64,000 nt of DNA from Streptomyces venezuelae. GTDB taxonomy: Bacteria; Actinomycetota; Actinomycetes; Streptomycetales; Streptomycetaceae. This document shows positions 12,414 to 25,511 of this stretch, piece after piece; position 1 is the stretch's first letter; every line of letters begins with the position of its first letter. The stretch spans positions 1,550,001-1,614,000 of the forward strand of contig NZ_CP029192.1 in the NCBI RefSeq assembly GCF_008642315.1, given 5' to 3'. Under the pieces are notes generated by a model, which had not been told where the DNA came from, searched no databases, and was given only the letters and a program-made list of their open reading frames with translations. The translations under genes were made by a program, and so were the position numbers.

Positions 12414-13598
12414 TCAGACCAGGAAGTCGCGGGCGATCCCCTCCGCCACCGTCTCCAGGATCGGGCCCGCCTCGGCGATGCACCGCGCCACGTCCGGCTC
12501 GACGTCGGTCAGGGCGTATGCGCGGCGGATGCCCGCCTTGCCGAGGACCTCCGGGGCGAGCGCGAGACGGCCGCAGACCGCGACGACCTCGATCCCGGCG
12601 GCCCGCGCGGCCGCGGCCACGCCCGCCGGTGCCTTGCCGTGCAGGGTCTGCTCGTCGAGCGAGCCCTCACCGGTGATGACGAGCGTCGCCCGCTCCAGGG
12701 CGGGCGCGAAGCCGAGCACGTCGAGCATGACCTCGATGCCGGGCCGGAAGCCCGCGCCGAGACCGACCAGCGCGCCGTACCCGATGCCGCCCGCTGCTCC
12801 GGCGCCCGGCGACTGCGCGTACTCCGCGGCCTTGGGGCCGATCGCCTTCTCCAGGACCGTGGCGTAGTGGGCGAGGGCGGCGTCCAGCGCGGCGACGTCC
12901 GCCGGGTCGGCGCCCTTCTGCGGGCCGTAGACCGCGGGGGCGCCCTTCGGCCCGGTCAGCGGGTTGTCGACGTCGCTGGCGAGCACGATCTCGACGTCCT
13001 TCAGGCGCGGGTCGAGGCCCGACAGGTCGGCGGTCGCCAGGTCCTTCAGCGGGCCGCCGCCGGGCGCGACGGGCTCGCCGTCGGCGTCCAGGAAGCGCGC
13101 GCCGAGCGCCGCCAGCATGCCGGCGCCGCCGTCGGTCGTGGCGCTGCCGCCGACGCCGAAGACGATGGTGCGGGCGCCCGCTTCGAGCGCCGCGCGGATC
13201 AGCTCTCCGGAGCCGTACGTCGTGGACGTGAGCGGCGCGAAGACGCCCTCGGGGAGCAGCTGGAGACCCGAGGCCTCGGCCATCTCCACGACGGCTGTGC
13301 CGTCCTTCAGCGCGTACGCCGCCGTCACCTCGTTGCCGAGCGGGCCCGTGACACGCACCTCGCGGCGCTCGAAGCCACCCGCGACGGCCGCGGCGACCGT
13401 GCCGTCACCGCCGTCGGCGACGGGCAGCGCCTCGACCGTGACGCCGGGGGCGACCCGGTGCAGCCCGGCCGTCACCCGCTCCGCGACCTGCACGGCCGTG
13501 AGCGAGCCCTTGAACTTGTCCGCGGCGATGAGCACGCGCTGCACACGCTCGTCGTGAGCCTGCTGCTCGTGTCCCGCCGTCCCTGCAGCGTCCGCCAC
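12414..13598 (-). CDS. glxK: glycerate kinase
   Basis: This 394-residue enzyme belongs to the GarK/GlxK glycerate kinase family, which phosphorylates D-glycerate to phosphoglycerate and so links glyoxylate metabolism to glycolysis. Seen motifs: VLIAADKFKGSLTA at the N terminus, PVADGGDGTV, FGVGGSATTDGGAGML, LASDVDNPLTGPKGA, FGPQ-like VYGPQKGA and LVITGEGSLDEQTLHGK. The start at GTG 13598 has AGGGGA about seven bases upstream; the frame stays open to 13946 but lacks a better site. It is transcribed alone, divergent from the BCCT gene, with a long inverted repeat between them. Confidence 0.9.
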   Translation of the reverse strand: MADAAGTAGHEQQAHDERVQRVLIAADKFKGSLTAVQVAERVTAGLHRVAPGVTVEALPVADGGDGTVAAAVAGGFERREVRVTGPLGNEVTAAYALKDGTAVVEMAEASGLQLLPEGVFAPLTSTTYGSGELIRAALEAGARTIVFGVGGSATTDGGAGMLAALGARFLDADGEPVAPGGGPLKDLATADLSGLDPRLKDVEIVLASDVDNPLTGPKGAPAVYGPQKGADPADVAALDAALAHYATVLEKAIGPKAAEYAQSPGAGAAGGIGYGALVGLGAGFRPGIEVMLDVLGFAPALERATLVITGEGSLDEQTLHGKAPAGVAAAARAAGIEVVAVCGRLALAPEVLGKAGIRRAYALTDVEPDVARCIAEAGPILETVAEGIARDFLV

Positions 13599-13687
13599 CT
13601 TGGTTTCCCCTTGCTTTCGGGCCTTGCTCGCGTCAAGGCAGTCGCGCCGCTGCGACCATAACCGCAGACGGGGGCCGCTGCCCATGG

Positions 13688-13719
13688 CCGCCGGGACGTG
13701 AGACGGCGCGTCCCGGCGG
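13688..13719. promoter_or_regulatory. 11-bp inverted repeat between glxK and the BCCT gene
   Basis: CCGCCGGGACG at 13688-13698 is perfectly repeated in inverse at 13709-13719 with a 10-base spacer. It ends 34 bases before the BCCT start codon, so it is either an operator or a hairpin in the leader RNA. Confidence 0.45.
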
Positions 13720-13753
13720 AAAATCCCCGGATATCGCCCCATAGTGGTGCGCC

Positions 13754-15478
13754 ATGAGTACGGAAATGATCGATCAGCCCCGTCCCGGTGACGGTCCGCC
13801 GGGCCCTCCCCCGGGCGACCGCGACCCTGCGGAGGGATCACCTCCGGACGGCACCCCCGACTACCTGGTCGTCGGCGTCGGCGTCGCCGCGGTGCTCGGG
13901 GTGGTCGCCTGGGCCGCGCTCGGCAAACGGTCCTTCGACCGAGCATCCGACAGCGCCCTCGGCTGGGTCCTCGACAACTTCGCCTGGCTCTTCGTGATCG
14001 CCGCGGACGTCTTCCTCGTCCTGTGCGTGGTGCTCGCGCTGAGCCGCTTCGGCCGGATCCGTCTCGGCACGGACGACGCGCGGCCCGAGTTCACGAACCT
14101 CGCGTGGATCGCGATGATGTTCAGTGCGGGCATGGGCATCGGTCTGATGTTCTACGGCGTCGGCGAGCCGCTGACCCACTACCTGGAGCCCCTGCCGTCC
14201 TCGGCCGCCGCGCCCCGCTCCGGCGCCGCGGCCCGCACCGCCCTTGAGTACTCCTTCTTCCACTGGACGCTGACACCCTGGGCGATCTACGGCATCGTGG
14301 GCCTCGCCCTCGCCTACGCGGGCTTCCGCAAGGGCCGCGGCAACCGGCTCAGCTCCGTCTTCGTACCGATCCTCGGCGCCCGGCGGGCGGCGGGCAGGCC
14401 CGGCCGGATCATCGACCTGCTCGCGGTCTTCGCCACCGTCTTCGGCACGGCGACCAGCCTCGGCGTCGGCGCGCTCCAGGTCGCCACGGGACTCAACCTC
14501 ACGACGGGCGTGGAGAATTCGACCACCCTCCAGCTCGTCATCATCGTCTCGCTCGGCGCCGCCTTCGTGCTCTCGGCCTTCTCCGGGGTGCACAAGGGCG
14601 TGAAGTGGCTCAGCACCCTCAACATCATGCTGGCCGCCTGCCTGATGCTGTTCGTCTTCGTCCTCGGACCGACCGTCTACATCCTGGACGCGATCCCCGC
14701 GAGCGTCGGCGGCTACCTCCACCAGCTCCTCCCGATGGCCTCGCGCACCGGCGCCTTCACCGACAGCGACTGGCTCGGCGCCTGGACGGTCTTCTACTGG
14801 GCGTGGTGGCTGTCCTGGGCCCCCTTCGTCGGCACGTTCATCGCCCGCATCTCCCACGGCAGGACCATCCGCGAGTTCCTGATCGGCGTCCTCCTCGTGC
14901 CGAGCGGCGCCACCGTCGTCTGGTTCTGCGTGATGGGCGGCACCGGCATCCGGCTCGACGCGACCGGCAAGGTCGACATGGCGGGGAAGATCGAGGAGGG
15001 GGCGGAGGCCTCGCTCTTCGCGATGCTGGACGCGCTGCCGCTCGGCACGGTCACGTCGTGGGTCGCGATGATCCTGGTGATGACGTACTTCGTCACGAGC
15101 GCGGATTCCGCGTCGCTGGTGATGGGCTCGCTCAGCAGCCGCGGCTCCCTGCACCCGCCGACCTGGCTGGTCGTCACCTGGGGTGTCCTCATGGCGGCGG
15201 TGGCCGCGGTGCTCCTGGTCGCGGGCGGCCTGGACTCGCTGCAGAGCGCGACGATCCTGGTGGCGCTGCCGTTCGTCGTGGTGATGCTGGCGCTGTGCTG
15301 GGCGCTCCTGAAGGAGCTGCGCAAGGACCCGGGCGCCGGCCCGGCACGCGGCCAGGCGCTGCACGGGCTGCGGGACGCGGTGCGCACGATGGTCGGCGAG
15401 GCGATGACCGAACAGACACCGGACCGCCACCACCGTCTCCGCCGGATCGCCAGGTCCCGCAGCCAGGACGGGGACTGA
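13754..15478 (+). CDS. BCCT-family transporter (betaine/carnitine/choline type)
   Basis: This 574-residue protein has about twelve membrane segments between residues 36 and 525. It carries BCCT hallmarks: FSAGMGIGLMFYGVGEPLTHY, HWTLTPWAIYGIVGLALAYAGFRKGRGNRLSS and WAWWLSWAPFVGTFIARISHGRTIREF, which hold the aromatic residues that bind quaternary ammonium substrates. It would take up glycine betaine, choline or a related compatible solute by ion symport. A Pro/Gly-rich N-terminal stretch of about 35 residues and a charged C-terminal tail may be the osmosensing parts, as known for BetP, though no sequence proof exists here. Confidence 0.92.
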   Translation: MSTEMIDQPRPGDGPPGPPPGDRDPAEGSPPDGTPDYLVVGVGVAAVLGVVAWAALGKRSFDRASDSALGWVLDNFAWLFVIAADVFLVLCVVLALSRFGRIRLGTDDARPEFTNLAWIAMMFSAGMGIGLMFYGVGEPLTHYLEPLPSSAAAPRSGAAARTALEYSFFHWTLTPWAIYGIVGLALAYAGFRKGRGNRLSSVFVPILGARRAAGRPGRIIDLLAVFATVFGTATSLGVGALQVATGLNLTTGVENSTTLQLVIIVSLGAAFVLSAFSGVHKGVKWLSTLNIMLAACLMLFVFVLGPTVYILDAIPASVGGYLHQLLPMASRTGAFTDSDWLGAWTVFYWAWWLSWAPFVGTFIARISHGRTIREFLIGVLLVPSGATVVWFCVMGGTGIRLDATGKVDMAGKIEEGAEASLFAMLDALPLGTVTSWVAMILVMTYFVTSADSASLVMGSLSSRGSLHPPTWLVVTWGVLMAAVAAVLLVAGGLDSLQSATILVALPFVVVMLALCWALLKELRKDPGAGPARGQALHGLRDAVRTMVGEAMTEQTPDRHHRLRRIARSRSQDGD

Positions 15479-15547
15479 ACCGGCGATGAGGGTGCGGGAT
15501 GCGTGAACCGGCGTCATGTGCGGCCGCGTTGGCCGCACAATGATCCC

Positions 15548-15949
15548 ATGCCTGAGTACCTGGAACTCGACCTGGCCGGGGCCGCGCTGCGCGTCGAGCT
15601 CGCCGACGTGGGGCAGGCCCCCGAATCCGGCGACCTGCCGCCGGAGTTCGGCGTGCCGGGGGCCGTCTCCGCCGGCGGGCGGGTCACGGCCCTCGCCGCC
15701 GACGCGCTGCGGGCCACGCTGCGGCCGCTGGGCCCGCTCCTCGACGAGGTGCACGCGTCGGTGTCCCGGGCCGAGCACCCGCCCGCGGAGTTCACGGTCG
15801 ACTTCGGCATCGAGGTCGGCAAGGACCTCAAACTCGGCATCGCGGGGGTGAAGGGGTCGGCCACCATGACCGTGTCGGCGACGTGGCGGCGTACGGAAGG
15901 GTCCGGTGCGGGAGCCGACGGGACGCCCGGCGGCACCACCGGGTCGTAG
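15548..15949 (+). CDS. trypco1-like protein (trypsin-co-occurring domain), CU044_2847 family
   Basis: This small 133-residue protein begins MPEYLELDLAGAALRVEL and shows the pattern of the trypsin-co-occurring domain: a beta-rich start, a helix (ADALRATLRPLGPLLDEVHASV), then AEFTVDFGIEVGKDLKLGIAGVKGSATMTVSATW. It ends in a Gly/Thr-rich tail. The next gene is a trypsin-like protease whose GTG lies two bases after this stop, so the two are translated together. Small proteins of this kind next to proteases and MoxR ATPases have been described in multidomain conflict systems; it may be a substrate or regulator of the protease. The family call is from memory of sequence features and moderately firm. 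Confidence 0.72.
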   Translation: MPEYLELDLAGAALRVELADVGQAPESGDLPPEFGVPGAVSAGGRVTALAADALRATLRPLGPLLDEVHASVSRAEHPPAEFTVDFGIEVGKDLKLGIAGVKGSATMTVSATWRRTEGSGAGADGTPGGTTGS

Positions 15950-15951
15950 CC

Positions 15952-18144
15952 GTGGGGTGGTTCAGGGGGACCCGGGTCCCGCAGGTCGTCGCGGTGCTCG
16001 GGCCGCACGGCGACACGGCCGTGGGAGCGGCCGCGCTCCTCTCCCCCGGGCGGGTGCTGACCTGCGCGCACGTGGTCAACGAGGCACTCGGCCGGCCTCC
16101 GTTGAGCGGAACGCGCCCCGCGCACGAGGTGCTCCAGGTCGGGTTCGCCCGGCGTACGGTACGGATCAAGGCGCAGATAGAGGTGTGGGTGCCGCCCCGG
16201 CACTCCTCCGCGGCCTGGCAGGGCGACCTGTGCGTGCTGCTCCTGGCCGAGCCGGCGCCCGCGAGCTCCGCCCCCGTCGTCTGGACGGAGATGGCGGAAG
16301 GCCAGTCGCTGCGGGCCTGGCACGGCTGCGGGGACCCGATCACCTTCGCGGACACGTCCCTCAAGCTGCTCGACGGCCACGTCGGCTACCTGGACGGGCC
16401 GCTGTCGGGTGCCGCGATCGGCCCCGGGTTCAGCGGTGGACCGCTGTGGACCGACGCGGGGGACAGCGCGACCGGGATCGTCGTCGGACAGCTCGGGCAG
16501 CCGACCGCCCCCGCCCACCCCGGCCAGACGCTGCGGCGCACCTGGGCCCTGTCCTGGCAGGCGGTGCGGGAACAGCTGTACGCGGCCGGGGCGGACGAGG
16601 TCGTGGCGGACTGCCGCACCGTGCGGCCCGCGCCGCAGAACGATCCGGTGGCCGTCGAACTGAGCGACCTGCTGCGGTCGTTGCTGCCCGAACCGACGGC
16701 GCGCGCCGAGCACGCGCGGCGGCTCGCCGACGAGCTGGGCCTCGCCGGGCCGGGGGACGGTTCGGCGCCCACCGTCGAGGAACTGACCGACGTCCTGCTG
16801 ACCCGGCGCCGTGCCCTGCCCACGCTCAGCGAGTCCCTGCTCACCGCCGGGCCCTACGGCGCACGCCCCGACCGGCTCACCGCGCTCCTCGGCACCGGCC
16901 GGGCCGTCGACGCGGCGGGCCTGCTCTCCCGTGGTGAACACGCCTCGCTGGTACGCCAGCTGGAGCTCGTCGTCCTCTCCGACCCGACGCTGCCCGCCCG
17001 CGCGGCCCAGGAGGCGCTGCGCTACACCACGCTCCCCGCGGCCCTGTGCGCCGCACGGCTGCCGCCCGAGGCACTGGAGCAGGTCATCGCGGACCTCGAG
17101 GAGTACCAGGACGGCGGCAGCGTGCCGGCGGGGACGCCCCGCGTGCCCGTACTCGTCCACCTGGTGGAGTTCATCGCCGCGGCCGCGGACGGCCCGCTCG
17201 GCGAAGGACTCGGCCGCTGGAGCGAGCGGGTCTGCACCCGGCTCGGTGTGCACCCCGCGGCGCGCGACCAGCGCAGGGCCGACGCCGCGCACTGGGCGGG
17301 CGCGCGACAGGCGCCGGTCACCCGGCTGCTCGCCCGGCTCACCAGGAGCGAGCCGGAAGGTGACGGCGCGGAGGCCACCGCGCGGTACCGGTGCAGGCTC
17401 TGGCAGCAGCACACGGACGGCTCGGTGCGCCGCCTGGAGACCGCCGCGGGGGACGCGCCCCTGTCGCCGGAGCAGGTCGGCGCGCTGATCCGCGAGGGCG
17501 CCGAGCGGTCCGGCGACGGGCGGCCCGCCGTGGAGATCGAGGTCGACCGCGAAGGGCTCCATCTGCCCGTCGACGAATGGGACGCGGGCAGATCGATCGA
17601 GTACGTGCCGAGCCTCCCCCTCGGGGCATCCTTCCAACTCACGCTGCGCTGCCCCGAGATGAGCCGCCGCGTGCCCCGCCGGGAGGTGGAGCACCGCCGC
17701 CGGTGGGGCGACGGGCACGGCAGAGTGCTGGTCATCGACCCCAGCTGTGCGGACAGCCGGCAGGTCGCCGCGCTGCTCAACTCCAGCCACCGGGACGTCA
17801 ACCACGTCGTCCTGCACGGCCCGCCCGCCCTCCGCGCCCAGCTGCTCGACCTCTGCCTGGCCCTCGGCGTCCCCGTGGTGCTGTGGGACCGCGAGGCGGA
17901 GGACCACGACCACGCCCACCGCCTCGACCCAATCGCCCCCACCGGACGGCTGCAGGAACTCCCCCACAGGCTGCTCATGTTCAGGGGTTCGGCGCTGCCG
18001 GACTCAGCGGGACCATCGGCGCGCCCCTCCCTGGTGTGGGAGGACCTCGCGTGGCAGGACCGCACGGGCGGGCAGCACGAGCCGAGGCTGACGGACCCCG
18101 ATGCGACGCGCCCGCTTTCCGACGAAGGAGCACGCAGTTCATGA
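15952..18144 (+). CDS. trypsin-like serine protease with C-terminal VMAP-C-like domain
   Basis: This 730-residue protein starts at GTG 15952, two bases after the trypco1 stop. Residues about 9-200 form a trypsin/HtrA-like protease with a complete triad: His40 in VLTCAHVV, Asp92 in WQGDLCVLLL and Ser161 in GPGFSGGPLW. There is no signal peptide, so it acts in the cytoplasm. The helical middle (about 215-470) resembles effector-associated spacer regions. Residues about 490-710 resemble the VMAP-C domain: LHLPVDEWDAG, LGASFQLTLRCPEMSRR, RRRWGDGHGRVLVID and the Trp-rich end VWEDLAWQDRTG. VMAP-C proteins work with MoxR and vWA partners in ternary conflict systems, which fits the following two genes. 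The ATGA overlap with the AAA gene supports coupling. Confidence 0.8.
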   Translation: MGWFRGTRVPQVVAVLGPHGDTAVGAAALLSPGRVLTCAHVVNEALGRPPLSGTRPAHEVLQVGFARRTVRIKAQIEVWVPPRHSSAAWQGDLCVLLLAEPAPASSAPVVWTEMAEGQSLRAWHGCGDPITFADTSLKLLDGHVGYLDGPLSGAAIGPGFSGGPLWTDAGDSATGIVVGQLGQPTAPAHPGQTLRRTWALSWQAVREQLYAAGADEVVADCRTVRPAPQNDPVAVELSDLLRSLLPEPTARAEHARRLADELGLAGPGDGSAPTVEELTDVLLTRRRALPTLSESLLTAGPYGARPDRLTALLGTGRAVDAAGLLSRGEHASLVRQLELVVLSDPTLPARAAQEALRYTTLPAALCAARLPPEALEQVIADLEEYQDGGSVPAGTPRVPVLVHLVEFIAAAADGPLGEGLGRWSERVCTRLGVHPAARDQRRADAAHWAGARQAPVTRLLARLTRSEPEGDGAEATARYRCRLWQQHTDGSVRRLETAAGDAPLSPEQVGALIREGAERSGDGRPAVEIEVDREGLHLPVDEWDAGRSIEYVPSLPLGASFQLTLRCPEMSRRVPRREVEHRRRWGDGHGRVLVIDPSCADSRQVAALLNSSHRDVNHVVLHGPPALRAQLLDLCLALGVPVVLWDREAEDHDHAHRLDPIAPTGRLQELPHRLLMFRGSALPDSAGPSARPSLVWEDLAWQDRTGGQHEPRLTDPDATRPLSDEGARSS

Positions 18145-19124
18145 CGGCATCCCAGGCATTCCCCACGTCCGGGCAGGGCGACTGGCGGCTGTTCCGGGGA
18201 GACGGCGACGCCCGGCACGTCGACTTTCCCGAGCCCCCGCCGTGGCGCCGCTTCACCCCCGCGGACGGCGCGCCACGACCCCGCCCCTATCTCATCGGGC
18301 CCGACGAATCCGAGGTGGTCAACGCCGCGCTGCTGCTGCGCCGCCCGCTCCTGGTCACCGGCCACCCCGGCACCGGCAAGTCCTCCCTGGCCCACGCCGT
18401 GGCGCACGAACTGACGCTGGGACGCGTGCTGACGTGGCCGGTCAACAGCCGCTCGACGCTGCGCGACGCCCTCTACGGCTACGACGCGATCGGCCGGCTG
18501 CGCGAATCCAATCTGCGCCGCGAGAGCGCCGGTGGCGACGTTGCCGGTGAGGACCCCGACATCGGGTCGTACGTCCGGCTCGGCCCGCTCGGCACCGCGC
18601 TGGTCCCGAGCGGACGGCCGCGCGTCCTTCTCGTCGACGAGCTCGACAAAGGGGACGTCGATCTGCCCAACGACCTCCTGACCGTCTTCGAGGAGGGCGA
18701 GTTCGAGATCCCGGAACTGGCCAGGCTGCCCGACGACCGGGCGCGGGTCGACGTCCTGACCGCGGACCCGCAGGTGCGGGCGCCGGTGACGCGCGGCAGG
18801 GTGCGCTGTTCCGAGTTCCCTGTGGTGGTCATCACCAGCAACGGAGAGCGCGAGTTCCCGCCCGCGTTCCTGCGCCGCTGTGTCCGCCTGGACCTGGCCG
18901 AGCCCGATGAGCAGCGGCTGCGCGACATCGTCGCGGCGCACCTCGGCGACGCGGCCCTCGACGGCGTCGACGACCTCCTGCACGCCTTCCTGGGCCGCCG
19001 CGCGCCCGGCGAGCTGGCCACCGACCAGCTCCTGAACGCCGTCTTCCTGCGCAAGGGCGGCCTCGACCTGCCGCCCGGCGCCCTGCTCGACGCGGTGCTC
19101 CACCGGCTGGGCGGGGTGGTGTAG
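18141..19124 (+). CDS. MoxR-type AAA+ ATPase
   Basis: This 327-residue AAA+ protein has Walker A GHPGTGKS at residues 74-81, Walker B VLLVDE at 162-167 followed by LDKGDVDLPNDLL, sensor 1 in VVVITSNGEREFPPAFLRRC and an arginine finger in FLRR. ATG 18141 overlaps the protease stop (ATGA) and has GAAGGAG about ten bases upstream; the frame stays open to 17391 but that part is a shadow. MoxR ATPases remodel partner proteins, often together with vWA-domain proteins. Here the partner is probably the SAV_2336-type protein that starts two bases downstream, whose middle holds a degenerate vWA-like segment. Confidence 0.88.
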   Translation: MTASQAFPTSGQGDWRLFRGDGDARHVDFPEPPPWRRFTPADGAPRPRPYLIGPDESEVVNAALLLRRPLLVTGHPGTGKSSLAHAVAHELTLGRVLTWPVNSRSTLRDALYGYDAIGRLRESNLRRESAGGDVAGEDPDIGSYVRLGPLGTALVPSGRPRVLLVDELDKGDVDLPNDLLTVFEEGEFEIPELARLPDDRARVDVLTADPQVRAPVTRGRVRCSEFPVVVITSNGEREFPPAFLRRCVRLDLAEPDEQRLRDIVAAHLGDAALDGVDDLLHAFLGRRAPGELATDQLLNAVFLRKGGLDLPPGALLDAVLHRLGGVV

Positions 19125-19126
19125 GC

Positions 19127-22100
19127 GTGCGGGGCGAGGACCCCGCCGAGCGGCTGCGCCGGGCGCTCGCGGTGTTCGCGGAGGGCGGTGTCGGCCTCGC
19201 GCGGGAGGAGCTCCTCGACGCGCTGTGGCTGGCGGCACGGCTGCCCCCGGGCGCGTCGAGCGGCCTGGCACGGGTGGCGGGGGCGGTCGCGCCCGGCCAA
19301 GGGGCCGACGACGGAGCCGGGTGGCTGCCGCCTGCCGAGGAGCGGCCCGGGGAGCGGGCGGCCGACAGGACGGCTCCGCGTCCGCGCGACCCGATGGAGG
19401 ACACGCCCGCGGCGCACCACCCCGACACCGGCAGACCACTCACGGACCAGGACGAACGTACCGCGCCCGACAGATCCGCCGGTGCGGTGGCCCGCCGCAC
19501 GGCGGCCCCGGCCCGCTCCCCGCTGTTCGGCAGCGCGGCCCCCGGCCCGCGGCACGGTGCCGGCGACGGCGCCGTGAACGGACTGCCCGTACGCGCACCC
19601 GGCACCCGCGCCACCGGCTCCCGGCAGCTGCAACTCGCTCGGGCGCTGCGCCCGTTGAAACAGACCGTGGCCGACCACGGGCGGTGGGAGCTCGACGAGA
19701 CGGCCACCGCCGAATCGACGGCCCACACCGGTCTCACCGACGCCGTGCTGCGCCCCGCCCGGGCCCGCTGGCTGAATCTGACGCTGCTCGTCGACGACGG
19801 CGCCTCCATGCTCCTGTGGCAGCAACTCGCCCTGGAGACAAGGCTTCTCCTGGAACGCAGCGGCGCCTTCCGTGACGTACGGGTGCACGGCCTGGACACC
19901 CGCGGTCCCGGCGCCCCGCTGCTCGGCCGGCGCCCCTTCACACCCGGCACCGCCGTCCTGCCGCCCGCCACGGTGACCGACCCCGGCGGCAACACACTGA
20001 TCCTCGTGCTCAGCGACGGCATCGGCGCCGCCTGGCACGACGGACGCATGCGTGCGCTCCTCGACCAGTGGGGGCGGTGCGGCCCGACCGCGGTGCTGCA
20101 CGCGCTGCCCCCGCACCTCTGGGACGGCTCCGGCATCCGGGCCGAGCCCTGGCGGATCACCAGCAGGCGGCGCGGCGCGCCCAACCTCGCCTGGGACGTG
20201 GCGGATCCGGTACTGCCGCCCGGTATCGCCGCGTTCGACGATGTGGCGGTCCCCGTGCTCACGCCGGAGCCGGGGGCGGTCGGTGCCTGGGCGGACCTCC
20301 TCGCGTCCCCCGGGACGAGCGCCGTGCTGCCGCTGCTGCGCCCGCCCTTCACCGCGGCCCCGGAGCCGCCTCCCGAACCGGACACGCAGCGGCGGGTCCT
20401 GCGGTTCAGGGAGACGGCCTCCCCGGAGGCGTACCGGCTCGCCGCCCACCTCGCCGCCGTCGGACCGGTCTCCGTGCCGGTGATGCGCCTGGTGCGGGAC
20501 GCACTCGGCCCGGACGTGACGACCGGGCACCTGGCCGAGGTCTTCCTCAGCGGTCTGCTGCGGCGCTGCGACGACGACACCGCTCTCGCGCCGCAGCACC
20601 GTAGCTACGACGTCACGACCGGCATCCGCGACATCCTCCTGGGCACCGCCCCGGTCCGCGAACTGCTGCGCACCAGCCGGGCGGTGACGGAGCGTCTCGG
20701 TGAACTGGCCGGTCGGTCGGCCGACTTCCCCGCCTGGCTCGCCCACCCGAACGGGCCGGAACGGGCCGGGCACGACGGACGGCCGTTCGGCTGGGTCGAC
20801 ACGCGGCTGCTGCGGAGGCTGGGGGTCGGCACGACGGGGACGGGACCCGCGCCGGACGACGATCCCCCGCTTCCCGCCTACGTCGACGCGCCGGGCTCGC
20901 CGTGGCGGTCCCTGCTGCCGCAGAACCCCCGGCAGGCGGGCCCCTGGCGGCTGTTCGCCCGGCACGTCGACGCGCGGACGACCGGCGGGATGTTCCTCGG
21001 GCGGCGCGGGGAGGGAGAGGTCGCCGCGCTCAGGCTCATCCGGTCCGGTTCCGCGCGCCGGGCCTCCCTGCCCCGGCAGGCCGAGGCGCTGCGCATGCTG
21101 CGTGGCGTACGGGCGCCCCGGCTCATCGACGTCGACGCGGGCCCGGAACCGTCCTGGATGGCGTGCGAACTGCATCTGACGGACGGGCTGCCCACCCCTT
21201 GTCTCACGAGTACCGGCCCGGACGCCCGCCGGTTCACCGATCCCCTGGAGTTCGCGCTGCTCGGCCGGGGCGTCGCGACGGTGCTCGCGGACGCCCATGT
21301 GCGGGGGTTCCTGCACGGCGACCTGACTCCGAACCGGGTGCTGCGGACCGCGGACGACGTGTGCGTGACCGGCTGGTGCGTGCAGGAGCACGCCGACGGC
21401 GTCGCGCACGACATCTCCGGACTGGGCCTCACCTTGCTGAGCGCGGCGGGCGGTGCCGTCCCCGACCCCTTCGCCCCGCTGCTGCGACGCTGTTCCTCGC
21501 CCCTGCTCGGCGAGCGGCCCGCCGCGGACGAGGTCGCCGCCTTCTTCGACGCGTACATCACCGCACACACCCCGGGCCCCGCGCCGCGCGGTCCGGACGA
21601 CGAGGCGCCCCTCGCCGTGCCCATCGGCCTGGACCCCCACGGCACGGAGGTCCTCCTGGACTTCCGTGCCATGGGCCCGCACGGCGTCGTCCAGGGCACG
21701 ACCGCCGACCGCTCCACGCTCCTGGAGGCGATCGTCGGCGGGCTCGCCGCACGGCACTCGCCGGGCGCCCTCCACTTCCATCTGCTCGACTCGACCGACC
21801 GGTTCCTGCGCTCGGCCAGCACGGGCACGCTGCCGCACATCGTGACCGGCTCCGCACAGGAACAGGCGTCCGCCCTCGAAGCCGAGCGCGCCCGCCGCCG
21901 CGAGCTCATCGCCGCCGCGCGGGCGGCACGAGCTCCGCGCCCGGCCCTGACCAGCCTGATCGTGGTCCTCGAAGCGCCAAGTCTCGGAGGGGACTTCGGC
22001 TGGCTCGAAGACCTCGACATCCACCTCCTGCTCGTCGAGGGGCCCGGGCGGGGGCCGGTCGACCTCGACTTCCGCGTCGACCTCGCCGCGGCCGACGGTC

Positions 22101-22861
22101 CGGCCCTCTTCCACTCGCGCGCGCCCCGCAACGGCACCCCCTTCCGCCTGCCGCTCCCGCGCCGACTGCCCCAGGAGGCCGGCTGCGCGGAGGAGTTCCG
22201 CCGGGTCATGTCCCTCGCGGGGCCGGGGAACAAGCACAACACCCTCGACAACCTGAAACGGATCAGGGCCCGCGAGCTGGATCACCTCGGCCGGGACCAT
22301 CCGCAGGCGCTGGCGACCCGCTGCGAGATCGGCCGCGTCGAACTCGCCCTCGACCGCCTCGACGAGGCCCTGGAGTCCTTCTCGGACTGCGCGACGGGCC
22401 GCGACACGGTACTCGGCAGGGGGCACGCCGACACCCTGACCGCGCACCAGCTCCGTGCCTACGTGCTCCACCGGCTGGGGCGCTACGAAGAGGCGTACAC
22501 GATCTGCCGCACCGTGCTGCGACTGTGGGTGAACCTACGGAACGAGCAGCACCCCGATGTCCTTCTGTGCCGGCACAACCTGGTCGTCGCGCTGGGCGCT
22601 CTGGGCCGGCACGAGGAAGCCGTGCCCGAGGCACGCGCCACGTACGAGGGGCGTCGGTCCGCTCTCGGCGACGACCACCCGGACACCCTCGCGAGCGGTC
22701 ACGAACTGGCGGTCGCGCTCGACGGCGCCCGGCGCCGGGCAGAGGCCCACGAGGTCGCGTCGGCCGTTCACGAGGCACGCGCGCGGGTCCTGGGCCCCGA
22801 GGACCTCGCCACTCTCACCACGCTGCGTGTCGTGAGGGAGTCCCGGCCCTCCGAATCCTGA
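19127..22861 (+). CDS. SAV_2336-type protein with pseudokinase, degenerate FtsK/EccC-like domain and TPRs
   Basis: This very large 1244-residue protein starts at GTG 19127, two bases after the AAA stop. In order: an SAV_2336 N-terminal helical segment (about 1-50); a disordered linker; a degenerate vWA-like domain (about 160-420) with VDDGAS at 222-227 in place of the metal-binding DxSx[21 protein letters not shown] (about 427) and a winged-helix-like stretch; a kinase-like domain (about 622-814) with HGDLTPN at 730-736 but TGW (748-750) instead of DFG and no clear VAIK lysine; an FtsK/EccC-like domain (about 830-1030) in which the Walker A lysine is replaced (GTTADRST, 857-864); and kinesin-light-chain-like TPRs (about 1038-1230, with repeated HPDxL). 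It looks like a catalytically dead scaffold or sensor. Confidence 0.78.
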
Positions 22862-22886: not shown

Positions 22887-23387
22887 GTGACCATCCAGGA
22901 CTACGACACGTACATCGCGGGACTCCCCCGCGTCCTCGTCGGAGCCGCCGCGCTCTTCCGCGACGCGGAGGGCCGGGTCCTCCTCGTCGAGCCCAACTAC
23001 CGCGAGGGGTGGGCGCTGCCGGGCGGGACCGTCGAATCGGACACCGGAGAGACGCCGCGGCAGGGTGCGCGCAGGGAGACGTTGGAGGAGATCGGGCTCG
23101 ACGTGGAGCTCGGGAGGCTGCTCGCGGTGGACTGGGTGCCGCCGGGTCCCTCGCGTCCGCGCCCGCCGCTGGTGGCGTACCTGTACGACGGCGGGGTGCT
23201 CGGTGCCGAGCGGCTGGAGTCGATCACGCTGCAGGAGGAGGAGCTTCTGTCGTGGCGGCTGGTGGCTCCCCAGCACCTCGCGGCGTATCTGCCGGAGGAG
23301 CTGGGGCACCGGGTCGCCGCCGCGCTCGACGTGCTGGCGCACGGCCATGGCCCCGCGGAACTGGAGAACGGCCACCGGGCCGGCTGA
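22887..23387 (+). CDS. Nudix hydrolase
   Basis: This 166-residue protein has the Nudix fold with the REtLEEiGL core of the Nudix box ([15 protein letters not shown]). The segment before it, [17 protein letters not shown], is two residues longer than the canonical G-x5-E spacing. The catalytic Glu pair is present, so hydrolysis of a nucleoside-diphosphate-linked compound is likely, but the substrate cannot be named. GTG 22887 is preceded by a weak ribosome site. It ends one base before the convergent ogt stop and 26 bases after the large module, and may or may not be cotranscribed with it. Confidence 0.85.
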
Positions 23388-23388
23388 C

Positions 23389-23892
23389 TCAGAACAGGGC
23401 GTCCTCGGCCGCCCGGCCCGCCCCTCCCTCGAAGGCCAAAAGCCGCTGCTTGCGGTCGAGGCCGCCGCCGTACCCGGTCAGGCTGCCGTTGGCGCCGATG
23501 ACGCGGTGGCAGGGCACGATGACGCCGATGGGGTTCTTGCCGTTGGCGAGACCGACCGCGCGGGAGGCGTTCGGTTTGCCGAGGGCTTCGGCGAGTTCGC
23601 CGTACGTGCGGGTCTCGCCGTAGGGGATGCGCCGCAGCTCGTCCCAGACGGTGCGCTGGAACGGGGTGCCTTCGAGCCGCAGCGGCACGTCGAATTCCGT
23701 CAACTCCCCCTCGAAGTACGCCTCCAGCTGGCTGATCGCCGCGCCGAAGGGTGCCGGGTCGCGGTCACCGAAGGTCTCCTCGGGCGGGCGGTGCCGCTGC
23801 TCGGTCATGTAGAGGCCGCTGAGGACGCCGTCGGTGGCGACGAGGGTGAGGGGGCCGTAGGGGCTGTCGATGAGGGTGTGCAGGCGTTCCAT
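23389..23892 (-). CDS. ogt: methylated-DNA--protein-cysteine S-methyltransferase
   Basis: This 167-residue protein contains the active-site IVPCHRVIG, where the Cys accepts the alkyl group, followed by GSLTGYGGGLDRKQRLL. The RTVWDELRRIPYGETRTYGELA part is the DNA-binding helix-turn-helix-like region with its arginine finger in NASRAVG. It removes methyl groups from O6-methylguanine in DNA by a suicide reaction. ATG 23892 has AAGGA seven bases upstream. It lies 47 bases downstream of the Ada-AlkA gene, forming an alkylation-repair pair. Confidence 0.94.
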   Translation of the reverse strand: MERLHTLIDSPYGPLTLVATDGVLSGLYMTEQRHRPPEETFGDRDPAPFGAAISQLEAYFEGELTEFDVPLRLEGTPFQRTVWDELRRIPYGETRTYGELAEALGKPNASRAVGLANGKNPIGVIVPCHRVIGANGSLTGYGGGLDRKQRLLAFEGGAGRAAEDALF

Positions 23893-23939
23893 GAGTACGT
23901 CCTTGGGCGGGGCGGAGGCGGGCACGGCGGGCGAGGCCG

Positions 23940-25436
23940 TCAGGCGGGGATGGTGTTGATCGGGTGGGCGTCGGTGGCCCACAAGTACTGCACCGCGTAC
24001 GCCCTCCACGGCCGCCAGGCGGCGGCGCGCGCGGTGAGCGCGGCAGGGGTGTGCGGCAGCCCCAACTCCTGTGCGGCACGCCGGATGCCGAGGTCGGAGG
24101 GGAGGAACGCGTCCGGGTCGCCGAGCGCGCGCATCGCGATGACCTCGACCGTCCAGGGGCCGAAGCCGGGGAGCTCGGTGAGGCGGGCGCGCGCCTCGTC
24201 CCAGTCGCTCTCCGGGCCGAGGCGGAGGGCGCCGTCGGCGAGGTGCCGGACCAGCGTCGTGAGGGTGGTACGGCGGCTGCGGGGCAGGGCGAGGGTCTCG
24301 GGGTCGATGGCGGCGAGCTCCTCCGGCGTGGGGAAGAGGTGCGTGAGCCCGCCCTCGGGGTCCTCGACGGGCCGCCCGTGCGCGGTGACGAGGCGGGCGG
24401 CGTGGGTGCGGGCGGCGGCGGTGGAGACCTGCTGGCCGAGGACGGCCCTGACGGCGAACTCGGCCTCGTCGACGGTCCGCGGCACGCGCCGCCCCGGAGC
24501 CTTGTCGACGAGCGGCGCGAGCAGCGGGTCGTCCCTCAACTGTCCGTCGACGGCGGTGGGATCGGCGTCCAGGTCGAGCATCCGGCGGCACCGGCTGATG
24601 GCGATGGTGAGATCGCGCAGATCGGTGAGGGTGAGCCGGCAGGCGATGTGATCGGGCCGCGGACCGAGCGCGACGATGCCGTGCCCGTAGGGGAGGTCGA
24701 GCGTCCTGCGGTACGCCCCGTCCCGCCACTCCTCGACTCCGGGCACGGCGGTGGCGATCAGGTGCCCGAAGAGGTTGTCGGGGTTGAAGGGCGCCCGGAA
24801 CGGGAGACGCAGGGTGAGGGTGCCGCCGGTGGGGCCGGGTGAGCTGTCCTCGGGCGCGCCGGTGCCGGGGCGCTTCGGGGCGCGGGATCGCAGCTCGCCC
24901 GGGGAGAGGGCGAAGACCTCGCGGACCGTGTCGTTGAACGTGCGGATCGAGGCGAAGCCCGCGGCGAAGGCGATGTCCGACATCGGCAGGGTGGTCGTCT
25001 CGATGAGGAGGCGGGCCGTCTGGGCGCGTTGGGCCCGGGCCAGGGCCAGTGGGCCCGCGCCGAGTTCGGCGCGGAGTTGGCGTTCGACCTGGCGGGTGCT
25101 GTAGCCGAGGAGGCCGGCGAGGCCGGGGACGCCGTCGCGGTCGACGACGCCGTCACCGATCAGGCGCATCGCGCGGGCGACGAGGTCGGCCCGCTGGTTC
25201 CACTCGGGAGAGCCCGGGCCGCTGTCCGGCCTGCACCGCTTGCAGGCCCGGAACCCGGCCTGCTGGCAGGCGGCGGCGCTCGGGTAGAACGTCATGTTCT
25301 CGGCCTTGGGCGGCACGACGGGGCAGCTGGGACGGCAGTAGATTCGCGTGGTCACGACGGCCGTGAAGAACCAGCCGTCGAAGCGGGCGTCCTTCGACTG
25401 AACGGCGCGTACACAGCGCTCTGTGTCGATGTGCAT
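23940..25436 (-). CDS. Ada-AlkA type bifunctional regulator / DNA-3-methyladenine glycosylase II
   Basis: This 498-residue fusion begins with an Ada zinc-binding domain: MHIDTERCVRAV, YCRPSCP and ACKRC give the four Cys ligands, one of which (in the first motif) takes up methyl groups from phosphotriesters. An AraC-type helix-turn-helix follows (LAGLLGYSTRQVERQLRAEL; IAFAAGFASIRTFNDTVREVF), then an AlkA glycosylase with AVLGQQVSTAAARTHAARL and the helix-hairpin-helix LPGFGPWTVEVIAMRALGDPDAFLPSDLGIRRA, in which the Asp is catalytic. It senses alkylation and excises 3-methyladenine. The Ada methyltransferase domain is absent, but ogt follows. ATG 25436 is chosen; an ATG at 25487 with AGGG is the alternative. 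Confidence 0.9.
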   Translation of the reverse strand: MHIDTERCVRAVQSKDARFDGWFFTAVVTTRIYCRPSCPVVPPKAENMTFYPSAAACQQAGFRACKRCRPDSGPGSPEWNQRADLVARAMRLIGDGVVDRDGVPGLAGLLGYSTRQVERQLRAELGAGPLALARAQRAQTARLLIETTTLPMSDIAFAAGFASIRTFNDTVREVFALSPGELRSRAPKRPGTGAPEDSSPGPTGGTLTLRLPFRAPFNPDNLFGHLIATAVPGVEEWRDGAYRRTLDLPYGHGIVALGPRPDHIACRLTLTDLRDLTIAISRCRRMLDLDADPTAVDGQLRDDPLLAPLVDKAPGRRVPRTVDEAEFAVRAVLGQQVSTAAARTHAARLVTAHGRPVEDPEGGLTHLFPTPEELAAIDPETLALPRSRRTTLTTLVRHLADGALRLGPESDWDEARARLTELPGFGPWTVEVIAMRALGDPDAFLPSDLGIRRAAQELGLPHTPAALTARAAAWRPWRAYAVQYLWATDAHPINTIPA

Positions 25437-25511
25437 GCCCTCAGCTTCGCCGATTCCGTACGCCCGAGGCTGGCGGAAATCCGACATCGACGTCGCCCTG
25501 CCCGCGGGGCG

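Follow-up and report, generated by a model that had tools for sequence, protein, structure and literature searches.

A predicted complete VMAP ternary conflict system in Streptomyces venezuelae and the probable polarity of its protease and vWA protein

Gene content and family membership

The window analyzed here is a stretch of 64,000 nucleotides of Streptomyces venezuelae (NZ_CP029192.1, 1,550,001-1,614,000, forward strand), and all coordinates are positions within it. A set of four genes, all on the forward strand, spans 15548-22861 (~7.3 kb; Table 1). It encodes Trypco1, a protein with a trypsin-fold domain, a middle region and a VMAP-C domain (hereafter VMAP), a MoxR-type AAA+ ATPase, and a SAV_2336 protein in which a predicted vWA component is followed by a multidomain arm. 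The genes are separated by 2 bases, an ATGA overlap and again 2 bases; a first-pass annotation of this DNA had claimed four strictly coupled genes, and its open reading frames (ORFs), coordinates and spacings are borne out.

Judged from sequence, the set is almost certainly a complete VMAP ternary conflict system and a full member of that predicted family, because it combines VMAP-C, a MoxR protein with the family motifs, a vWA domain, Trypco1 and the family gene order. The earlier link of these genes to nucleoside triphosphate-dependent conflict systems thereby stands, in the form of a strictly coupled, related set. In hidden Markov model (HMM) searches of Pfam and NCBIfam, Trypco1, trypsin-VMAP-C, AAA+/MoxR and SAV_2336 were all matched. 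Trypco1 (PF19493, 57.3 bits against a curated Pfam cut-off of 24.6) and VMAP-C (PF20028, 109.5 against 27) both lie above cut-off, as do AAA_5 in the MoxR protein (34.3 against 22) and TPR_12 in the last protein (64.3 against 30.1); Trypsin_2 (PF13365, 27.9 against 27.6) and FtsK_SpoIIIE in the last protein (24.4 against 24) are barely above theirs. The last protein also matches NCBIfam SAV_2336_NTERM (NF041121) with 393.9 bits against a cut-off of 200. The middle region of the window VMAP has no Pfam VMAP-M match.

Table 1 Genes, domains and motifs of the four-gene set (positions in the window)
Feature	Position	Strand	Details
Trypco1 gene	15548..15949	+	133 aa; PF19493 E 2.5e-15; NF041216 1.4e-10
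Trypsin + middle region + VMAP-C gene (VMAP)	15952..18144	+	730 aa, GTG start; PF20028 E 3.1e-31, PF13365 E 4.6e-6
Trypsin-fold domain	15973..16566	+	triad H40 (16069-16071), D92 (16225-16227), S161 (16432-16434)
VMAP-C domain	17383..18045	+	PF20028 over residues 478-698
MoxR-type AAA+ ATPase gene	18141..19124	+	327 aa; AAA_5 E 2.8e-8
MoxR N-terminal motifs	WRLFRG 18183-18200; PPWRRF 18237-18254	+	fit published WxhapG and PsWRxa
SAV_2336 protein gene (vWA component + multidomain arm)	19127..22861	+	1244 aa, GTG start; NF041121 E 1.1e-117
N-terminal helix motif of vWA protein, 10 residues	19205..19234	+	candidate MoxR-docking element
Predicted vWA domain	19619..20296	+	MIDAS-type D223 (19793-19795), S227, D297 (20015-20017)
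Pseudokinase domain	20924..21556	+	R636 at beta-3 Lys site; D732 HRD-site Asp kept; G749-W750 at DF of DFG
Degenerate FtsK/EccC-like ATPase domain without Walker A	21584..22246	+	PF01580 E 2.3e-5; 4nh0 profile match E 3e-19
Kinesin-light-chain-like TPR repeats	22394..22831	+	

In the excerpts of Kaur et al. 2020 (PMC7159879) used here, VMAP ternary systems are predicted with the gene order VMAP-MoxR-vWA and are described as widespread in multicellular bacteria. The marks given there are WxhapG and PsWRxa motifs in MoxR; a vWA domain that mostly has two aspartates, one at the end of strand 1 and one at the end of strand 4; a vWA N-terminal helical extension of the form [D/E]xxx[D/E]xxx-aromatic; and a variable, multidomain, often inactive arm, for which kinases (mostly inactive), inactive FtsK and TPRs are listed. 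Trypsin-VMAPs are frequently accompanied by Trypco1 or Trypco2. The locus shares with the Trypco1/trypsin subtype of these authors the strict order of Trypco1, trypsin-VMAP, MoxR and vWA plus arm, the MoxR motifs, the two vWA aspartates, inactive arm domains, and the occurrence, within a single genome, of two systems that differ in their arms; the arm here combines a pseudokinase, an EccC/FtsK-like domain and a kinesin-light-chain (KLC)-like TPR. A Thiohalocapsa VMAP system diversified by a diversity-generating retroelement, as excerpted from PMC10907252, likewise has a trypsin-VMAP, MoxR and a vWA target protein, with vWA proposed as the sensor; the sensor there is a hypermutated C-type lectin, whereas a TPR/pseudoenzyme arm is present here. 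Excerpts of a CRISPR survey (PMC10910872) place VMAP systems near type III CRISPR loci. The listed papers and excerpts of the open-licence PMC literature, with subscription papers and preprints outside the search, yielded no experiment on any VMAP system.

Two other assignments were tried and rejected, namely a beta-propeller (bpMoxR) ternary system (PF20030, 20.1 bits against 27, and no beta-propeller family in the four proteins) and the TPR protein of the FxSxx-COOH system (NF040586, 83.1 bits against 300).

The vWA component, the ATPase and the protease

Two samples of loci were compared. The first holds 73 loci: 71 from listed VMAP-C rows in genomes of <=10 contigs, picked by eye, plus the window locus and a second system of the same genome (L010). 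The second, termed the named loci, is the best 80 of 217, retrieved with two patterns from an alignment of 40 VMAPs; one of these patterns includes the catalytic His, so that His conservation is biased in this set. Locus classes in the combined set of 153 loci were assigned by home-made HMMs and regular expressions, and near relatives within the samples are non-independent.

We assign the N-terminal domain of the SAV_2336 protein as a vWA co-chaperone, above all because of its constant position next to VMAP-C. An ORF with this domain (SAV_2336-N) lies just 3' of VMAP-C in 73/73 sampled loci (weakest match 93 bits), and conserved orthologues standing apart were not found among them; MoxR is present in 71/73. 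In the named loci, MoxR is found in 80/80 and SAV_2336-N in 78/80, both misses (L088, L151) being at contig ends. Order and spacing are held in 95/98 loci, the three exceptions exceeding set distance limits. The residues D223 and D297, of metal ion-dependent adhesion site (MIDAS) type, are kept in 146/147 aligned loci (L116 has a gap), and position 227 is S in 121 and T in 17 of the 147, with a canonical DxSxS in some members; the alignment omits 6/153 loci (L011, L034, L088, L112, L134, L151) with no match, a weak match or a contig end. Pfam VWA_CoxE matches 14/31 SAV_2336-N fragments from diverse loci (best E 2.6e-5). The window's own fragment is unmatched and carries no vWA label in Pfam or NCBIfam; with a profile of the 31 fragments, the integrin I domain came up at no better than E 0.44 and ranked below an unrelated dipeptidase (E 0.26), and a whole-model fold search of the last protein barely probed its vWA and FtsK-like parts. 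The MoxR-vWA chaperone pairs CoxD-CoxE and RavA-ViaA, which PMC7159879 lists, share the combination of a MoxR AAA+ protein with a vWA protein, the VWA_CoxE matches included. Such pairs are not known to have a VMAP or protease component. With this assignment, the database label "SAV_2336 N-terminal domain-related protein" would gain a defined role. The last protein had first been described as a pseudokinase-FtsK-TPR scaffold; kinase, FtsK-like and TPR parts were recovered, and the vWA domain in the N-terminal third had been missed.

By our own regular expressions, the WxhapG-type and PsWRxa-type motifs of MoxR occur in 139/151 and 141/151 loci, respectively. The N-terminal helix of the vWA protein has E28, D31 and W34 invariant across 40 homologues; the acidic spacing fits the published motif and the aromatic residue comes one position early, the only core difference found relative to the Kaur et al. 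subtype. The helix motif was found in 130/149 loci having both MoxR and a vWA gene, leaving 19 MoxR-containing loci without it by our regular expression, and in 0/2 loci without detected MoxR. These last two (L011:4179-10315 and L012:4029-9778) are VMAP-vWA pairs in which the VMAP has EAD2 and M0, and the vWA protein, lacking the helix motif, has NB-ARC and FxSxx-type TPRs. A STAND ATPase (NB-ARC) may replace MoxR in them, and the two cases provide a lead that the helix may be the MoxR dock.

The active-site call of Ser161 in the first-pass annotation holds: S161 lies within GFSGGPL, and S161, H40 and D92 are invariant in a 40-sequence alignment. The H-D-S triad is intact in 98/100 aligned VMAPs (80 named and 18 sampled loci), the other two (L030, L074) being without a trypsin domain. 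Among a further 29 sampled trypsin loci, 22 align as H-D-S, and seven are unclear at Asp or Ser in the alignment, each with a GxSG motif. Database VMAPs retain the triad in 116/120 cases, and the remaining four are N-terminally short models retaining the serine; triad loss in those without a Pfam trypsin match (several of P0176-P0189) was considered and rejected, the triad being present. One of the 22 loci, L047, is doubtful, having no GxSG serine motif by regular expression, and the protease there may be broken or lie in another frame. In both this locus and L055, the protease part matches one ORF and the VMAP-C part another. The AlphaFold2 model of the window VMAP has a mean predicted local distance difference test score (pLDDT) of 79.5; whole-model fold searches with it were filled by trypsin-domain matches, none informing on VMAP-C, and a profile search of solved structures with VMAP gave no relative at E up to 0.01.

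The small partner, Trypco1 or Trypco2, tracks the protease subtype. Trypco1 was detected by our own HMM in 42/47 trypsin loci of the first sample versus 4/26 loci without detected trypsin. It is present in 66/80 named loci, one of which also matched the Trypco2 HMM; in the remaining 14 (L109, L110, L120, L121, L129, L135, L137, L138, L143, L147, L149, L156, L157, L158), our own HMM finds a Trypco2 ORF, confirmed by Pfam in four. These 14 share another trypsin motif set (LTA-x-H, DVALL, SG-[AST]-A). Loss of Trypco1 along with a dead protease was therefore rejected, as the named loci lacking Trypco1 hold Trypco2 beside another trypsin subtype. Over 65 loci, Trypco1 distances follow those of all parts and those of trypsin best (partial r given MoxR 0.46, reached in 0/500 permutations in which trypsin was the only part permuted), followed by VMAP-M (0.40), TPR (0.38) and vWA (0.34). 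This pattern modestly supports a protease-linked role for Trypco1, inhibitor or activator alike. Against solved structures, the sole match of Trypco1 was to carbon monoxide dehydrogenase (E no better than 0.0025, and no stretch passed), which was taken as chance.

The C-terminal arm and the polarity of the system

The kinase, FtsK-like and TPR parts of the arm were found by profile search of solved structures, the kinase and TPR parts also by the AlphaFold2 model. In the window kinase, an HGD keeps the HRD-site Asp, and R, R and G occupy the lysine, catalytic-Asn and DFG-Asp sites. Across 120 vWA proteins, the beta-3 K is present in one, the HRD-site D in 41 and the DFG-site D in five (missing in 115/120), and all three occur together in 0/120 kinase domains. 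A Trp next to the DFG Asp site is kept in 119/120, so that this looks like an old, conserved pseudokinase. Complete HRD-N-DFG was likewise found in 0/46 arms of sampled trypsin systems, 10 of which match Pfam Pkinase, and a live kinase effector is rejected by these counts. Walker A is present in the FtsK-like part of 0/105 homologues. This domain partially resembles EccC of type VII secretion (NCBIfam EccCa 7.1e-10; 4nh0); it differs in lacking Walker A, and its score falls far short of the NCBIfam cut-offs (38.3 bits where 509 are required), and membership in type VII secretion was rejected on those cut-offs. The arm looks inert here, though not in every relative. Arms are very diverse: at a threshold of E 0.001, the 46 arms together match 55 Pfam families, a few of these possibly stemming from wrongly chosen ORFs. 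The second ternary system of the same genome (L010:7348-14590, - strand) comprises a trypsin-VMAP, MoxR and a vWA arm with kinase-like, BTAD/SARP-like and HAD-like parts; no Trypco1 was found there by our own HMM.

Sequence divergence was compared over 70 loci, in bins of MoxR identity of 65-80% (1998 pairs) and 80-97% (408 pairs). In the first bin, median identities were 74% for MoxR, 58% for vWA, 54% for vWA-L, 45% for trypsin, 37% for VMAP-M and 33% for VMAP-C; within the last protein they were 29% for the pseudokinase, 24% for TPR, 23% for the linker and 20% for the FtsK-like domain. The arm domains are thus the least alike structured parts (20-29%). In the closer pairs, the medians were 59% for trypsin, 56% for VMAP-M and for the pseudokinase, 48% for the FtsK-like domain and 41% for TPR. 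Over 65 loci, the distance matrices of all parts are correlated with one another (r 0.58-0.88).

Two papers, in the excerpts used here, give the same proteins opposite roles. Kaur et al. 2020 (PMC7159879) propose that VMAP senses and that the vWA arm is an effector freed by proteolysis; in PNAS 2024 (PMC10907252) the vWA protein is proposed as the sensor and the protease as the effector. For this clade we favor the latter polarity, with a rough probability of 0.55, because the protease triad is kept while the kinase and FtsK-like part of the arm lack key catalytic residues. Of the four proteins, only the protease and the MoxR ATPase have retained their catalytic motifs intact. The vWA protein would sense a trigger, presumably phage, via its arm of predicted dead enzyme domains, perhaps through peptide binding on the TPRs. 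The MoxR ATPase, perhaps docked on the vWA N-terminal helix, would relay the signal by remodeling the complex that the proteins are predicted to form, and the trypsin-fold protease with its intact triad would then be set free in the cytosol to act as the effector. Trypco1 would serve as a dedicated regulator of the protease, by restraint or activation, and the outcome may be cell suicide or degradation of invader proteins. An anti-invader (defense) role, possibly against phage, is predicted. The first-pass annotation had also let the ATPase and scaffold sense and the protease act; this is the same as the PMC10907252 proposal and is favored by the motif counts, though it is not proven.

Several observations weigh against this assignment of roles. 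Dead arm domains would also fit the decoy or dominant-negative effectors considered in the Kaur et al. excerpts. Since kinase activity had probably been lost already in the common ancestor, the 120 kinase domains are non-independent. Arms of relatives contain live-looking modules (Walker A in 10/46, NB-ARC in 8/46), and TIR domains occur in several database homologues of the vWA protein. Variability fails to separate sensor from effector, since VMAP-M varies too (37%) and equals the pseudokinase in the closer pairs, and the arm identity figures suffer from the aligning of unlike arms. PADLOC-DB 2.0.0 gave no match for genes 1-2 and only weak ones for genes 3-4 (the best, at E 2.9e-5, covering a short part of the ATPase), and membership in its known defense systems was rejected.

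The Kaur et al. polarity is possible, although on balance we consider it unlikely here. The VMAP middle region would sense the invader, and the protease would cleave the vWA protein, possibly within the flexible linker, and so free the arm as a decoy or scaffold effector. This published proposal is restated in the excerpts of PMC10907252, and both the kept triad and the poor conservation of the linker that joins the N-helix to vWA (23% median identity at an aligned fraction of 0.58) are in its favor. However, the arm here has no intact enzyme motif, and in the 1998-pair bin the middle region does not exceed the arm in variability (median identity 37% versus 20-29%). With the triad kept and the arm without live kinase or FtsK chemistry, the dispute over polarity reduces to a two-mutant experiment.

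A doubtful elaboration of the favored polarity, in which the vWA protein senses and the protease acts, is a bacterial guard that carries its own decoys. The inactive kinase and EccC/FtsK-like domains would serve as bait by mimicking the host proteins that invaders target. Once bait and TPRs together had captured an invader protein, MoxR would disassemble the complex, freeing a cytosolic protease restrained until then by Trypco1. If true, one operon would combine sensing by host mimicry with an ATPase ratchet and suicide by proteolysis.

Distribution and genomic neighborhood

VMAP-C is found in 101/121 same-genus genomes, with 0 to 5 matches per genome. VMAP-C and SAV_2336-N each occur twice in the whole genome studied here, every VMAP-C next to a SAV_2336-N. 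An orthologous system appears in a database record of S. venezuelae, its vWA protein being 86% and its VMAP 90% identical. The set is flanked 5' by a BCCT transporter gene (12414-15478) and 3' by NUDIX and DNA-alkylation repair genes (22887-25487). Among the matches listed for 24 same-genus relatives, 12 have the upstream flank and NUDIX on one contig, 0.1-3.1 kb apart; this gap is too small for the 7.3-kb module, which is therefore not there in 12/12 assessable relatives. In one of these 12 (G014), a related system lies beyond the NUDIX gene (C89:5112-7770, VMAP-C at C89:4364). A NUDIX gene is present in 11/80 named loci, directly after the vWA gene in L082, L083, L084, L111 and L113 and before Trypco1 in L100, L103 and L106. 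Since the module or a relative lies on either side of the NUDIX gene, the site looks like an insertion hotspot. The locus is accessory.

This distribution bears on a further explanation, which we regard as improbable: a housekeeping or developmental protein quality control role, in which a MoxR-vWA chaperone pair and a protease would assemble or degrade a host complex and take no part in conflict. Known MoxR-vWA pairs are assembly chaperones according to the excerpts of PMC7159879, and the wide presence of VMAP-C in the genus would suit such a role. The accessory site, empty of the module between the same flanks in all 12 assessable relatives (though in G014 a related system sits just beyond NUDIX), the varying number of VMAP-C matches per genome and the very diverse arms argue against it. 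That the genes form a new, undescribed four-gene system, as the first-pass annotation had suspected in calling the exact set not known to be characterized, is most improbable and was rejected upon identification of the vWA domain: the precise arm (pseudokinase, EccC-like, KLC-type TPR) is not named as such in the excerpts of PMC7159879 and PMC10907252, but the gene order and all core parts are those of the published VMAP ternary system.

A promoter and terminator scan gave no promoter-like site and one terminator-like site against 0.6 expected. A perfect inverted repeat, TGCGGCC-N5-GGCCGCA, lies at 15519-15537, ending 10 bases 5' of the Trypco1 start, and is a possible operator.

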